Below are positions 1,213 to 42,044 of a DNA stretch of 46,028 bases, piece after piece. The notes below the pieces were generated by a model. It saw only the letters and a program-made list of their open reading frames with translations, was not told the DNA's origin and did no database searches. Position 1 is the stretch's first letter, and each line of letters opens with the position of its first letter. A program made the position numbers and the translations under genes. This stretch comes from a bacterium. Lineage in GTDB: Bacteria > Actinomycetota > Thermoleophilia > Miltoncostaeales > Miltoncostaeaceae. The stretch lies in contig JAPOLI010000012.1 in assembly GCA_029977205.1 (NCBI GenBank), forward strand, positions 1-46,028, read 5' to 3'.

Positions 1213-1583
1213 CGGCTGCTCCCTCGGTTTACGTCAAAGTGACTCTTCACACTAGAGGCCTCATATGCCGGACGGCCATCCGTGCTCAGGCACACCACGG
1301 CTCGCGGACCTCTCCTGGTGAGGGCGGGGGACGGTGGGAGCCACCGCGCTCCGGGCAACGCTGGCCCCGCGCCCCGGCATCGACCGTCGCGCGCGGTCGC
1401 CTCGCCTCGTCACGCGATAGGGGCACCGACGCGGGCGTCGAATACCACCGCGTATGGCTGCCATCGACACATCCCGCGACGACACCCGGCCACGGCACTG
1501 CTCTCCGCTTGCGAGCGCGGGTGCCCCGCCGTCGCCACCACCGGGGATGTCGTGCGCTGGCGAGCGGTGAGGGGCGCAGCCGG
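1213..1583. other. 371-bp intergenic region upstream of ruvC
   Basis: This region lies between the divergently transcribed small gene (minus) and ruvC (plus). The frame upstream of ruvC stays open but is Arg/Pro-rich with no family likeness, as expected of chance open frames at this GC content. YebC, often upstream of ruvC, is not here. I see no RNA gene or clear promoter. TAGTGT on the minus strand near 1250 could be the -10 box of the small gene. Confidence 0.4.
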
Positions 1584-2081
1584 ATGATCGTGCTGGGCAT
1601 CGACCCGGGCCTGGCCAACACCGGGTACGCCGTGGTCCGCCGCGCGGGCAGTCGCATGGAGGTGTTGGCGCACGGGACCCTGCGGACTGGTGCGTCCACT
1701 CCGCCCGAAGAGCGCCTGCTGGCGCTCCATGATGGCCTGGCAGGCGTGGTTGCGGAGCAGCATCCCGATGTGGCTGCGATCGAGGCGTTCTTCGTTCATC
1801 CCGTGAGCAAGGCTGCGATGGGCATGGCGGCCGCACGGGGAGCGCTCCTGGTGTCCTGCGCGCAGGCCGGGCTGGCGGTCGCCGAATACACGCCCACCGC
1901 GATCAAGCAGGCAGTAACCGGAAATGGTCGCGCGGGGAAGGAGCAGGTACGGGGCATGGTGGCGCGCCTGACCGGGGTGGAAACGCAGACAGACCACGCG
2001 GCGGACGCCATCGCCGTGGCCATCTGCCATGCGTCTGCCGGCCCGCTTCAGGCGGCGATCGGCGTCCGGGAGCAGCGATAG
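1584..2081 (+). CDS. ruvC: Crossover junction endodeoxyribonuclease RuvC
   Basis: This 165-residue resolvase makes paired nicks in Holliday junctions bound by RuvAB. The start MIVLGIDPGLANTGYAVV is the canonical RuvC N-terminus. The four acidic/metal-site positions are visible: Asp7 in GIDPG, Glu67 in AIEAFF, and Asp137 and Asp141 in the TDHAADAIAVAICH block. The length matches the family (about 160-180 aa). The frame is open upstream, but ATG 1584 is chosen because the conserved N-terminus begins there, with a GAGGGGCGC purine-rich stretch about 7 nt before it. It is first in ruvC-ruvA-ruvB; its TAG stop is the first half of a TAGCCT -10 box for ruvA. Confidence 0.96.
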   Translation: MIVLGIDPGLANTGYAVVRRAGSRMEVLAHGTLRTGASTPPEERLLALHDGLAGVVAEQHPDVAAIEAFFVHPVSKAAMGMAAARGALLVSCAQAGLAVAEYTPTAIKQAVTGNGRAGKEQVRGMVARLTGVETQTDHAADAIAVAICHASAGPLQAAIGVREQR

Positions 2082-2084
2082 CCT
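2079..2084 (+). promoter_or_regulatory. -10 box TAGCCT for ruvA, overlapping the ruvC stop
   Basis: TAGCCT is followed by 7 nt and then ATG 2092. Its first three bases are the ruvC stop codon. This suggests that ruvA-ruvB can be transcribed as a leaderless mRNA independently of ruvC. Confidence 0.5.
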
Positions 2085-2091
2085 GCGAACC

Positions 2092-2667
2092 ATGATCCGG
2101 TTCGTGCGCGGTCATCTGGTGGCCGCCGACGCCGAGGGCGTCGTGGTGGGGATGGGGGGCATGGGATTCGGTATCCGGGTCTCCGATTCCACGCGCGCCG
2201 ATCTGCCCGGCATCGGCAGCGAAGTGGTGCTCCACACGCACCTGGTGGTCCGCGAGGATGCCCTCGACCTCTACGGCTTCTCCGAGGAGTCCGAACGCTC
2301 GATCTTCGAGGCGCTCCTGGGCGTCAATGGCGTCGGGCCGCGCAGCGCGCTCTCCATCTGCGGCCTCGGCACGCCGCAGGCGGTCGCCTTGGCGATCGGG
2401 GGTGGTGATGTCGCCTATATCTCGCGGGCGGTCGGTGTCGGGAAGAAGACGGCCGAGAGGGTGGTCCTCGAACTGCGCGACACGGTGGGGGTCACCGGTG
2501 CGAGCGGTGCCGAGGGCATCGGAACCGGGCCGCGGGGTGGCGCGCGCGAGGGCCTGGTGGCGCTGGGATTCGCGCCGGATCAGGTGGACGCGGCCCTTGC
2601 CGGCGCTGACGCCGAGATGGATGAGGAGGCCCTGATCCGGCACGGGCTCGCGGTGCTCGGCCGATGA
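2092..2667 (+). CDS. ruvA: Holliday junction branch-migration subunit RuvA
   Basis: A 191-residue DNA-binding subunit that forms tetramers on the Holliday junction and loads Ruv[11 protein letters not shown] begins domain I (OB fold); [14 protein letters not shown] is the typical domain I end. The helix-hairpin-helix region is seen in [16 protein letters not shown] and [16 protein letters not shown] (residues about 75-130). A C-terminal domain III ([19 protein letters not shown]) contacts RuvB. The start is fixed by the conserved N-terminus and by the -10 box 7 nt upstream; the start lies 10 nt past the ruvC stop. It overlaps ruvB by 4 nt (ATGA), indicating translational coupling. Confidence 0.96.
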
Positions 2668-3746
2668 CAGACGACGACCGCCTGGCGGACCCCGCGGTGA
2701 CATCGGAGGAGGAGCCGTTCGACACATCCCTTCGCCCGCGCACGCTCGACGACTTCATCGGCCAGGAGTCGGTCCGCCAGCAACTCGCGATCTTCCTCGA
2801 GGCCGCCCGGCAGCGGCAGGAGGCCCTCGACCACGTGCTGCTCGCCGGCCCGCCGGGGCTCGGCAAGACCTCGCTGGCGATCATCCTTGCGTCGGAGATG
2901 GGCGTGGAGATCACGGTCACCAGCGGCCCGGTGCTCGAGCGCAAGGGCGATCTCGCCGCCATTCTCACGGCGCTCGGCCCCGGTGATGTGCTGTTCGTCG
3001 ATGAGATCCACCGCATGAACCGGTCGGTCGAAGAGGTCCTCTATCCGGCGATGGAGGACTTCCAGCTCGATGTCGTGCTGGGGCAGGGTCCTCAGGCGCG
3101 AACCCTGCGGCTGGACCTGCCGCGCTTCACCTTGGTGGGTGCGACCACCCGCTCCGGGCTCCTCACCACTCCGCTCCGTGATCGCTTCGGCGTGGTGCAG
3201 CGGCTCGACTACTACGGGCCCGACGACCTCGGGCGAATCATCATGCGATCCGCTGACCTCCTGGGCGTGGAGATCGCCCCGGACGGCGCCGTGGCGATCG
3301 CCGTCCGCTCACGGGGAACACCGCGCATCGCCAACCGACTGCTGCGCCGGGTGCGCGACGTGGCGCAGGTGAAGGGCCTGGGCACGGTGGACCAGCGCGT
3401 TGCCGAGCAGGCACTCGAGATCCTCGAGGTCGACGAGGCCGGCCTGGATGACCTGGACCGGAAGATCCTCACCCATCTGGCGGTCACGTTCGCCGGGCGC
3501 CCCACGGGCCTCGGCACGCTTGCTGATGCCGTCGGTGAGAGCCCCGACACCATCGAGGACGTCTATGAGCCGTTCCTCCTCCAGCAGGGCCTTCTCGCGC
3601 GCACTCCGCGCGGGCGCGTGGCAACCGCACGGGCGTACGTGCACCTGGGCCTTGAGGTGCCGCGCGAGGTGCGCGCGCAGGGCGGGGGGCAGGAGCCCTT
3701 GTTCGACGAGCCCGAGCCGGGAGCCGCCTGGGGATCGCTCCCCTAG
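2664..3746 (+). CDS. ruvB: Holliday junction branch-migration ATPase RuvB
   Basis: A 360-residue AAA+ motor that pulls DNA through the RuvA-bound junction. Motifs: the RuvB N-terminal signature [15 protein letters not shown], Walker [10 protein letters not shown] (residues about 63-71), Walker [11 protein letters not shown], sensor 1 LVGATTRSG, the arginine finger region PLRDRFG, and sensor 2 in [17 protein letters not shown] winged-helix DNA-binding domain ([24 protein letters not shown]-type block) ends the fold, followed by a short acidic tail. It starts at an ATGA overlap with ruvA, so the two are translationally coupled. The gene ends 25 bp from the convergent lipoprotein gene, across a GC-rich palindrome. 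Confidence 0.97.
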
Positions 3747-39601: not shown

Positions 39602-39934
39602 ATGGCGACTCCCTCAAAGGCCGGGCAGGCACCTCAGCGCTCTCTCGACCAGAGGATGGATGCCCTCCGCCGGGCGAATGAGATCCGCTCCCTCCGGGCC
39701 CAGCTCAAGCGCGACCTGAAGTCCGGCGCCCTTTCCGTGGACGAGGTGATCGAGTCGCCGCCCGACTACGTCCTCACCGCCAAGGTGTTCGACATGATCG
39801 TCGCGGCGCCCAAGTACGGGAAGGTCAAGGCCACCCGCCTGCTCAACCAGTGCCGCATCTCCCAGGGCAAGACGCTCGGGGGACTGTCCGACCGGCAGCG
39901 GGGTGAGCTGGTCGAGCTCCTTCGCCTCCGGTAG
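39602..39934 (+). CDS. mihF: Actinobacterial integration host factor (mIHF)
   Basis: A 110-residue nucleoid-associated DNA-binding protein. The mIHF core is clear: ANEIRSLRAQLKRDLKSG, PPDYVLTAKVFDMIVAAPKYGKVKATRLLNQCRIS and GGLSDRQRGELVEL, with the helix-two-turn-helix DNA-binding block LLNQCRIS. It bends and compacts DNA and assists recombination and gene control. It lies immediately before gmk, a conserved actinobacterial pair. ATG 39602 is chosen by the promoter box 7 nt upstream and by family length (about 105 aa); the longer open frame overlaps carB. Confidence 0.93.
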   Translation: MATPSKAGQAPQRSLDQRMDALRRANEIRSLRAQLKRDLKSGALSVDEVIESPPDYVLTAKVFDMIVAAPKYGKVKATRLLNQCRISQGKTLGGLSDRQRGELVELLRLR

Positions 39935-39948
39935 CCCGCCGCCCCCGC

Positions 39949-40500
39949 GTGTTCGTGGTGTCGGGTCCGTCCGGCGCCGGCAAGGGAACCCTGATCAAGG
40001 GCGCGCTCGAGCGTATCCCCGACCTCGCCGTGGCGGTGTCCGTGACCACACGCGCGCAGCGCCCGGGAGAGGTGGACGGGCGCGAATACCACTTCATGAG
40101 CAGGGCGGAATTCGCCCGGCTCGTTGCTGAGGGAGCATTCCTCGAGCACGCGGAGTTCGCCGGCAACCGCTACGGCACGCTCAACAGCGAGCTTGATCGC
40201 ATCATGGGGATGGCGCGATCCGTGATCCTCGAGATCGAGCTGCAGGGTGCCCGCAATGTGCGCCGGGAGCGTCCCGAGTGCGTGTCGGTATTCATCGAGC
40301 CCCCATCGCTGGAGGAACTCGCCCGTCGTCTGCGCGAGCGGGCCACCGATGCCGAGGAGGAGATCGAGGCGCGCCTCGAGGTGGCCCGCACCGAGGTCGC
40401 GGCGCGCGAGGAGTTCGACCACGTGATCCTGAACGACCACGTCGACAGGGCCACCGCGGAGCTCGTCTCCGTCATCGACGCCGAGATGGACGCCGCCTAG
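39949..40500 (+). CDS. gmk: Guanylate kinase
   Basis: A 183-residue enzyme that phosphorylates GMP to GDP. The P-loop VSGPSGAGKGTLIKG begins at residue 4. The GMP-binding region has SVTTRAQRPGEVDGREYHFMS, EFAGNRYGT and ILEIELQGARNV; the lid RRLRERATDAEEEIEARLEVA follows. GTG 39949 gives the normal short N-terminus and lies 14 nt past mihF, so the two are probably cotranscribed. The usual third gene, rpoZ, is not found downstream. Confidence 0.96.
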   Translation: MFVVSGPSGAGKGTLIKGALERIPDLAVAVSVTTRAQRPGEVDGREYHFMSRAEFARLVAEGAFLEHAEFAGNRYGTLNSELDRIMGMARSVILEIELQGARNVRRERPECVSVFIEPPSLEELARRLRERATDAEEEIEARLEVARTEVAAREEFDHVILNDHVDRATAELVSVIDAEMDAA

Positions 40501-40645
40501 GGCCCCGTCCCGGACCGGCGCGTGGTGTCTGTGACATTCCACGGCCGGGGGGCGGCGATATCGCCCTCCTCCATTCTGAACGGTCGTTCAGGCGAAATCG
40601 CCGCCCCCCGGCCTGCGCACCGTCGTGCATGGGCCACCCCCGCCG

Positions 40646-40681
40646 GCCCCCTCCCTGCGCGGCACCGCGCAGGGAGGGGGC
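40646..40681 (+). terminator. Long GC-rich hairpin downstream of gmk
   Basis: GCCCCCTCCCTGCGCGG, two bases, then its exact complement: a 16-bp stem with a 4-nt loop. It could end or stabilise the mihF-gmk transcript. No T-run follows, and it belongs to the repeat cluster. Confidence 0.4.
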
Positions 40682-40813
40682 TCCGGCGTCGCTCGAACGA
40701 TCGTTCATAAGGGAGGAGGCCGACGTCGGAGCCCCTGGCCGTCCAGGGGTCAAGGATGGGGTGCACGCCCGCGACCGTGCACGCCGGATTTCGCACGACG
40801 GGAGGAGCAGGGC

Positions 40814-40819
40814 TAGCCT
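40814..40819 (+). promoter_or_regulatory. -10 box TAGCCT for coaBC
   Basis: TAGCCT is followed by 7 nt and GTG 40827, the leaderless pattern; it fixes the coaBC start within a long open upstream frame. Confidence 0.5.
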
Positions 40820-40826
40820 TCCCCGC

Positions 40827-42044
40827 GTGGCTGAGATCCTGATGGGCGTGACCGGCGGCATTGCCGCGTACAAGAGCCTCGACGTGCTGCGCATCCTCCA
40901 GCGGCACGGGCACGGGGTGAGCGTGGTGATGACGCACACGGCCGAGCGCTTCGTGGGCAGTGCGTCGTTCGCTGCCCTGTCGGGGCGCGAGGTGGGCACC
41001 CACCTGTTCGGCGATGCCGAGCAGCCCGGGTACCACCACCTGGACGTCAACGACGGCAAGGACCTCATGCTGGTGGCGCCGGCGTCGGCCAACACCATCT
41101 CGCAGATGGCCAGTGGCTCCGCGACCAGCCTGCTCACCTCGTGCTACCTGGCATTTCGCGGGCCCGTGGTCGTGGCCCCGGCGATGAACACGTCCATGTG
41201 GCTGCACCCCGCGACCGGGCGCAATATCGACCTCCTGCGCGCCGATGGTGTCCACCTGGTCGAGCCCGAGAGCGGTCTCCTCGCGGATGGCGCGGTTGGC
41301 CCCGGGCGACTCGCTGAGCCCATCGCCATCGTGGAAGCCGTCGAGTCGGTCCTTGCGGGCGGGGGAGGACGGCGCGACCTCGCCGGCACCACCGTGCTGA
41401 TCTCCGCGGGTGGCACGCGCGAGCCGATCGACGCCGTCCGCTACGTCGGCAATCGCTCGAGCGGGCGCATGGGGTGGGCTCTTGCCGCCGCCGCACGGGA
41501 TCGCGGCGCCGATGTGGTGGTCGTACAGGCCAACGTGGATCTCCCCCGTGAGTCCGGCATCCGGTACGTGGATGCCCCGACCGCCGCAGCGATGCGCGAT
41601 GCGTGCCGTGCGGAGTTCCCCGCATGCGATGTGCTGATCATGTGCGCGGCGGTCGCCGACTACCGGCCCGTGGATGCGGCTGCGGGCAAGATCGACAAGA
41701 GCAGGGCGGATGCGCTGACCGTGCAGATGGAGCGCACCACCGACATCCTCGCCGAACTCTCGGCCCTCCGTGAGGACCAGGTACTCGTGGGCTTCGCCGC
41801 CGAGCACGGGGCCGCTGGGCTCGAGCGCGCGCGCGCCAAGCGCGAGCGCAAGGCCGTGGACATCGTGGTCCATAACGACGCTGCGGTCGAGGGCGCTGCG
41901 TTCGAGGGCGCCGACAACATCATCACGATCATCGGCCCCGGTGATGCCGAGGACGCGCTCCCCCGGATGTCCAAGCGGGAGTGCGCTGAGCGCATCCTCG
42001 ACGCCGCCGGCCCGCTGGTGGACGCACTGCCGACCCGGGCCTAG
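40827..42044 (+). CDS. coaBC: Bifunctional phosphopantothenoylcysteine decarboxylase/synthetase
   Basis: A 405-residue two-domain enzyme of coenzyme A synthesis. The FMN-dependent CoaC half starts ILMGVTGGIAAYKSLDVLR, has the active-site region HHLDVNDGKDLMLVAPASANTISQMASG, and the substrate motif APAMNTSMW. The CoaB half (from about residue 190) has TVLISAGGTREPIDAVRYVGNRSSGRMG, the core motif MCAAVADYRP, and KIDKSRA. It joins 4-phosphopantothenate to cysteine using CTP, then decarboxylates the product. GTG 40827 is chosen by the conserved N-terminus and by the -10 box 7 nt upstream. Confidence 0.96.
   Translation: MAEILMGVTGGIAAYKSLDVLRILQRHGHGVSVVMTHTAERFVGSASFAALSGREVGTHLFGDAEQPGYHHLDVNDGKDLMLVAPASANTISQMASGSATSLLTSCYLAFRGPVVVAPAMNTSMWLHPATGRNIDLLRADGVHLVEPESGLLADGAVGPGRLAEPIAIVEAVESVLAGGGGRRDLAGTTVLISAGGTREPIDAVRYVGNRSSGRMGWALAAAARDRGADVVVVQANVDLPRESGIRYVDAPTAAAMRDACRAEFPACDVLIMCAAVADYRPVDAAAGKIDKSRADALTVQMERTTDILAELSALREDQVLVGFAAEHGAAGLERARAKRERKAVDIVVHNDAAVEGAAFEGADNIITIIGPGDAEDALPRMSKRECAERILDAAGPLVDALPTRA

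Follow-up and report, generated by a model that had tools for sequence, protein, structure and literature searches.

The space between gmk and coaBC in this actinobacterial genome holds a cluster of inverted repeats, and the question it raises is whether these form a regulatory site private to the locus or belong to a repeat family found elsewhere. The window referred to below is the whole stretch of DNA that was analysed, 46,028 nucleotides long. The gene at 39949-40500 is named gmk in line with the preliminary description. The features of the locus are the following.

39949-40500, plus strand: gmk (guanylate kinase), the upstream gene, from the list of open reading frames; orthologs in 19 of 20 genus genomes
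40501-40777, no strand: stretch that has no equivalent in G030, whose gmk-coaBC spacer is short, from comparison of orthologous spacers
40537-40623, plus strand: hairpin unit 1, whole model match including foot and tail (covariance model R1, 103 bits; among the 19 units from which R1 was built)
40543-40565, plus strand: 5' arm of unit 1 (inverted repeat, 96% complementary)
40566-40590, plus strand: loop of unit 1, CTCCTCCATTCTGAACGGTCGTTCA, 25 nt, conserved across units
40591-40613, plus strand: 3' arm of unit 1, pairing with its 5' arm
40646-40681, no strand: middle hairpin, a perfect 17-bp inverted repeat (40646-40662/40665-40681)
40662-40746, minus strand: hairpin unit 2, facing unit 1 (covariance model R1, 75 bits; also in R1's own set)
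40677-40691, minus strand: one arm of unit 2 (inverted repeat, 93% complementary)
40695-40719, minus strand: loop core of unit 2, CCTCCTCCCTTATGAACGATCGTTC, matching the 25-nt unit pattern
40721-40735, minus strand: other arm of unit 2, inverted-repeat partner of 40677-40691
40827-42044, plus strand: coaBC, the downstream gene, an open frame whose GTG start is suggested by the MAEILMGVTGGIAAY reading common to relatives

The cluster of inverted repeats reported in the preliminary description was confirmed, as the spacer holds the perfect 17-bp repeat of the middle hairpin and a perfect 17-bp run within the 23-bp repeat of unit 1 (40543-40565/40591-40613, one mismatch). Unit 2 is formed by a 15-bp repeat, again with one mismatch. 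The two inverted copies of CCTCCTCCnTTnTGAACGnTCGTTC also proved correct, at 40565-40589 (+) and 40695-40719 (-), while the palindromes described as 10 bp long are present but measure 12 bp (GGCGATATCGCC and GAACGATCGTTC). At about 85 nt, the whole unit of outer stem and loop is larger than the repeat first described, and in the window its arms of 15-23 bp flank a loop that is conserved and measures about 27 nt. The middle hairpin draws on sequence of unit 2, namely its tail and inner arm, and therefore competes with that unit's own stem; a similar hairpin is readable in the spacers of G023 and G034 and, less well, of G032.

We then compared the spacer with chance expectation. The fold of 40501-40826 had a z score of -6.9 on the plus strand and -7.6 on the minus strand, and none of 100 shuffles was equally stable. 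Allowing up to 3 mismatches, the 25-nt unit has three matches in the 1.71-Mb genome, two in the spacer and one on contig C34, whereas its reversed control has none. Exact matches to GAACGNTCGTTC in the window were restricted to the two spacer copies, but with 2 mismatches allowed the core occurred there at chance level (16 seen, 15.2 expected). A scan of the window for stems of at least 13 bp with at most one mismatch returned 12 hairpins, among which 40543-40613 has the longest stem and is the only one with its loop. Once mismatches are allowed, the core by itself does not stand out; it is the hairpin as a whole that does.

To define the family, 19 distinct units of the loop type seen in the window (type 1) were aligned and used to build covariance model R1, which recovers these 19 by construction; the units of G033 and those with loop types 2 and 3 lie outside that set. 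A search with the 25-nt unit at 3 mismatches matched 8 of the 42 genomes of the family (order and family comprise the same 42), all from the genus of the window, and the reversed control gave two matches, one in G032 and one in G006. At an E value of 1, R1 matched at least 14 of the 20 genus genomes. At 0.01 in the family run it matched at least 12 of 42, all of the window's genus (Miltoncostaeales), and among the candidates scored there was no match in the 22 other family genomes. In each genus genome these searches scored 106-150 of the 1,255-3,190 candidates from the first look, and copies may be missed. The accepted set comprises at least 45 units, distributed over 27 sites in 12 of the 20 genus genomes, or at least 2-8 units per unit-bearing genome. 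The minimum counts are 5 in the genome of the window (G000; contigs C21, C34 and C30), 3 in each of G023, G027, G029 and G038, 2 in each of G028, G030, G031 and G036, 4 in G033, and 8 in each of G032 and G034. The total was reached from 51 kept places by removing six loci, namely L068, L077, L080 and L086, which represent one orthologous, coding-looking place with weak scores, and L096 and L097, which scored weakly and lack the loop of a unit; where one hairpin also matched as an echo on the opposite strand, the echo was excluded as well. A search by loop pattern added just one further place, an extra unit in G023 that is not counted among the 45.

The 25-nt type-1 pattern, run over the genome_contigs collection, matched 5 contigs from 4 metagenome-assembled genomes (G023, G030, G032 and G034), which all belong to the genus. 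With the type-2/3 loop pattern, 76 of 399 genomes of the class matched, 10 of them in the genus; some genomes had matches to the reversed control too, and we take the 66 matches outside the genus, whose interiors vary, as probably due to chance. Plasmid and phage collections gave no match at 1e-5 in distant mode, and two exact loop patterns matched no viral contig. The portions of the literature consulted on Miltoncostaea and Miltoncostaeales, on REPIN, RAYT and BIME elements and on actinobacterial palindromic repeats hold no account of such repeats in this order. The hairpins between gmk and coaBC are not private to the locus; they are members of a small repeat family that is so far limited to one actinobacterial genus.

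The units share a common order of parts. A foot, NACG in 39 of the 45 units (GACG, or CGTC on the other strand, in 16), is followed by an outer stem of roughly 15-24 bp, a stem top in which TTCG or ATCG usually faces CGA, and a loop of about 27-31 nt (25 nt in unit 1 of the window). Behind the stem stands CTGCGC (25 of 45 units) or a similar sequence, and no U tract. The loops fall into type 1 (CCTYCTCCCTTCTGAACGGTCGTWC), type 2 (GGTCGGACCTCTTCGAACGGTCCTCCCC) and type 3 (CCGACCTATGACGGTCGG), with variants in G033. An inner stem of GACC with GGTC is possible in types 2 and 3, whose outer stem has a bulged base, GATCTTCG against CGAAATC.

Stem and loop behave differently across this set. In the 19 type-1 units, changes on both sides were found for 16 of 22 stem pairs compared to 10.4 in shuffles, and 88.7% of cells were paired, against 36-55% when the partner was slid. 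The arms of facing partners (18 combinations) are 60% identical and their loops 82%, with shuffled arms at 51% (sd 12). Between places, 18 type-1 units (81 comparisons) showed 63% identity in the arms and 90% in the loops. The loop is conserved, while the arms, whose likeness barely exceeds that of shuffled sequence, remain self-complementary and covary. The 45 outer stems contain 1051 Watson-Crick pairs, 6 G-T and 27 A-C pairs, 54 other mismatches and 29 gap positions, counts in which the pairwise alignments enter the feet of some units and add mismatches; some of the A-C pairs trace to a single conserved mismatch that recurs at the top of the stem, which makes the contrast between G-T and A-C smaller than the raw figures suggest. 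Selection on RNA would be expected to spare G-U and remove A-C. Since the stems show no excess of G-U over A-C, we read the pairing as imposed on DNA, and it looks as if it is kept at that level. Template switching has been described as a mechanism by which compensatory changes keep arms paired without G-U intermediates in RNA genes (PMC8794818, consulted in part). The present arms resemble that case in changing together and staying paired, and differ from it in being DNA-level repeats; template switching between arms is a plausible explanation of their joint change.

Comparison of flanking sequences assigned the sites to four syntenic intergenic places, in addition to two that occur in G033 only.

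Place A: between gmk and coaBC
Place B: between an epimerase-like gene and a LysR gene
Place C: between the type III glutamine synthetase gene (glnA; Pfam) and the next gene, confirmed through the C-terminus of glnA
Place D: between a LuxR-type response regulator gene (Pfam) and an ABC transporter gene

The flanking genes at all four run in the same direction, and at one of the G033 places they converge, each gene then having a unit in its own sense. Facing units are found at 17 of the 27 sites, spanning 177-304 bp and with the plus unit first in every case, and the other 10 sites hold one unit. An eighteenth facing pair, in G023, has a gene between its units. In the members examined, the sense unit starts approximately 4-45 nt past the upstream stop codon at places A, C and D and at both G033 places, and about 220 nt from it at place B. 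Three of the nine lone units for which orientation was worked out are antisense, and a role at gene ends is therefore not strict. The check proposed in the preliminary description, for intergenic, paired copies of variable presence in the genome and its relatives, gave a positive result, with further copies in G000 on C34 and C30. Uniqueness to the locus combined with conservation there, which would have pointed to a local regulatory site, was not found as stated, yet the four places are themselves conserved in synteny. The likeness to BIME/REP clusters or a foldback element was largely right in kind, except that the repeats are not freely scattered.

At place A, gmk was found in 19 of 20 genomes and units in 7 of these 19: pairs in G000, G023, G032, G034 and G027, one unit in G028, and one in G029 on another contig that breaks there. 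Ten of the 19 have short unit-free spacers, with 31-100 nt from the stop codon to the codons for GVTGGIA. These include G030, which adjoins G000 in a tree built on three proteins, and in which 3 nt after the gmk stop codon are followed by TGCACGCnGGATTTCGC, whose counterpart in the window begins at 40778. In the remaining two, G031 (L124) and G036 (L122), a different insert stands behind gmk, an unrelated inverted repeat of GGTGTATCGGTTGGCGACAACT type. The gmk-coaBC spacer thus seems to collect palindromic inserts.

At place C, 10 of 18 genomes have units (both in six, one in four) and 8 have none. A U-tract terminator was seen in 0 of the 10 unit-bearing spacers compared to 5 of the 8 unit-free ones, a contrast that is confounded with phylogeny and suggestive only. 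The three unit-free spacers that failed the terminator test are those of G024 and G026, where a hairpin misses the tail criterion, and of G037, which has another palindrome array. The 85-nt spacers behind the glutamine synthetase gene in G033 (L144) and G040 (L145), genomes listed as different species, are identical.

The layout of the units, palindromic, paired and intergenic, is that of REPINs mobilised by RAYT-like Y1 transposases, and the preliminary description had proposed a RAYT/IS200-like partner. A search with PF01797 identified 15 Y1 transposase matches in 11 of the 20 genus genomes, including one in the genome of the window (G000:C62). Nevertheless, none of the 12 Y1 neighbourhoods scanned with the unit model at an E value of 1 (12 of the 15 matches) holds a unit, and five of the 12 (L106, L107, L108, L109 and L112) hold a different palindrome, of GGTGACTGTCACC or GGTGCCTGACACC type. 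Y1 matches are present in 5 of 12 unit-bearing genomes against 6 of 8 unit-free ones, and the seven unit-bearing genomes without a match include G027, G029, G030, G031 and G036, which are 94-96% complete. Because of the empty neighbourhoods and these five genomes, the proposed partner is unsupported; GTAG, moreover, occurs within the first 16 nt in 1 of 45 units. Mobilisation of the units as classical REPINs is accordingly very unlikely. A GGTGCCAGACACC array occurs at place C behind the glutamine synthetase gene of G037 (L146), and this array and the GGTGACTGTCACC/GGTGCCTGACACC palindrome are probably the true RAYT-linked REP of the genus.

The published accounts of known palindromic repeats used for comparison were consulted in part. 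REP and BIME elements are described as intergenic palindromes that mostly lie close behind genes in tandem or convergent arrangement and often form facing dimers, whose partners frequently differ in stem or loop, with stems of 5-13 bp and loops of 2-20 in the GTAG class and stems of 8-9 bp and loops of 4-5 in the CGTC class (PMC3733652); copy numbers of REP families are usually above 100 (PMC2817692). The units resemble them in being intergenic, mostly behind genes, arranged as facing heterodimers and of several subtypes per genome (PMC3733652), and also in the general sense that one palindromic unit recurs at several intergenic places of a genome (G000). The NACG foot, in its GACG form, recalls the CGTC tag of CGTC REPs on the other strand. 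In contrast to GTAG REPs, however, the units carry a GTAG foot in the single case given above; unlike CGTC REPs, unit 1 of the window has arms of 23 bp and a loop of 25 nt; and unlike REP/BIME elements in general, the units, by the counts given above, do not form large families, their arms vary from place to place and the loop is the conserved part. REPINs are described as inverted hairpin units with a mismatch or bulge close to the top of the stem, units that stand alone being likely relics of pairs (PMC3116915, PMC8266576). The present units share all of these features, and differ in having no GTAG tag, no association to the Y1 genes examined and far fewer copies. Since the units disagree with the classes described in PMC3733652 in the length of stem and loop and in copy number, and with the GTAG class also in the tag, we would call the units an unusual variant of the palindromic-repeat kind, apparently outside the GTAG and CGTC families.

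The units might instead act after transcription, as a structured RNA or specialised 3' UTR terminator whose loop binds a protein or whose hairpin ends or protects the mRNA. The sense unit lies directly behind stop codons at most places, at glnA it stands where unit-free relatives often have an ordinary terminator, its stem covaries strongly and its fold is very stable; in having a strong hairpin behind stop codons it is like an intrinsic terminator. Against this, units occur equally in the opposite orientation, where the complement is transcribed with the genes, the stems show no preference for G-T over A-C, the stem is far longer than that of a terminator and is followed by no U tract, and the loop is conserved. 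No terminator-like site was called in the gmk-coaBC spacer, and Rfam matches for 39900-41000 and for five loci were all below gathering score. We consider this reading unlikely. A repeated dimeric operator had also been suggested, and could be a repressor site present twice near coaBC. Its core, GAAC-N4-GTTC, resembles the Gram-positive SOS box, and unit 2 of the window has a perfect palindrome in GAACGATCGTTC. The palindrome is lost in relatives (GAACGGTCGTAC, GACGGTC and other cores), where GAACGATCGTTC is the exception and the commonest core of the same type is GAACGGTCGTWC, and loop types other than type 1 break it further. The conserved feature is a hairpin with long arms, and sites with 2 mismatches are at chance level in the window. 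The operator was rejected on the conservation of the loop and is extremely improbable.

A further alternative is that the facing hairpins are ends of an ancient insertion sequence or cassette, termini able to carry a gene, with the short pairs as emptied derivatives. At place D of G023 the facing pair encloses a 1.25-kb gene (L173:432-1682, G023:C124) for a secreted IPT/TIG-domain protein, and no gene is enclosed in G030, G032, G034 and G038. This is a single case, however; no unit lies near the orthologs that G028 and G031 have of this gene, a clean target-site duplication could not be recognised, and plain insertion of the gene between two units would explain G023 as well. Such an origin is thus scarcely likely. 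We regard as quite unlikely a system in which a genus-specific protein reads the extruded or single-stranded hairpin through its 27-31-nt loop and feet, the private arms of each site are re-matched on the DNA, and facing pairs can flank a passenger gene, as in G023. If true, this reading would mean a mobile or structural DNA system that recognises hairpins and is distinct from RAYT/REP.

We favour, with reasonable though not high confidence, a genus-restricted family of palindromic intergenic repeats of REP/BIME type that was probably dispersed as a non-autonomous element and now stands at fixed gene boundaries. The loop of the hairpin, together with the feet, is the conserved and presumably recognised part, and the arms would be free to change provided that self-complementarity stays, with template switching or conversion between them re-matching the arms at the DNA level. 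Dispersal probably took place in an ancestor, by recognition of the hairpin. No full copy with its own transposase and no acting enzyme was found in the searches, and an enzyme may since have been lost. The same places across several species point to stability rather than movement, and loss by deletion could explain many of the empty sites. Today the units persist at a small number of fixed gene boundaries, where two units with different arms often face each other, and our best guess for their present role is that of a transcription boundary at gene ends, where relatives without units often have an ordinary terminator. Most likely, then, the units are remnants of a palindromic, non-autonomous element that have been retained at the ends of genes, possibly as such boundaries. 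The defining feature of known palindromic repeats is a stem that the copies share; in this family every place has a stem of its own, and only the loop is common to them. With about a dozen related genomes and clear empty sites, the family offers a tractable case for the upkeep of changing yet perfect DNA palindromes, and for how gene ends exchange one type of hairpin for another.

Near the locus, just before gmk, lies a small reading frame, 39605-39934, whose predicted protein resembles actinobacterial integration host factor.
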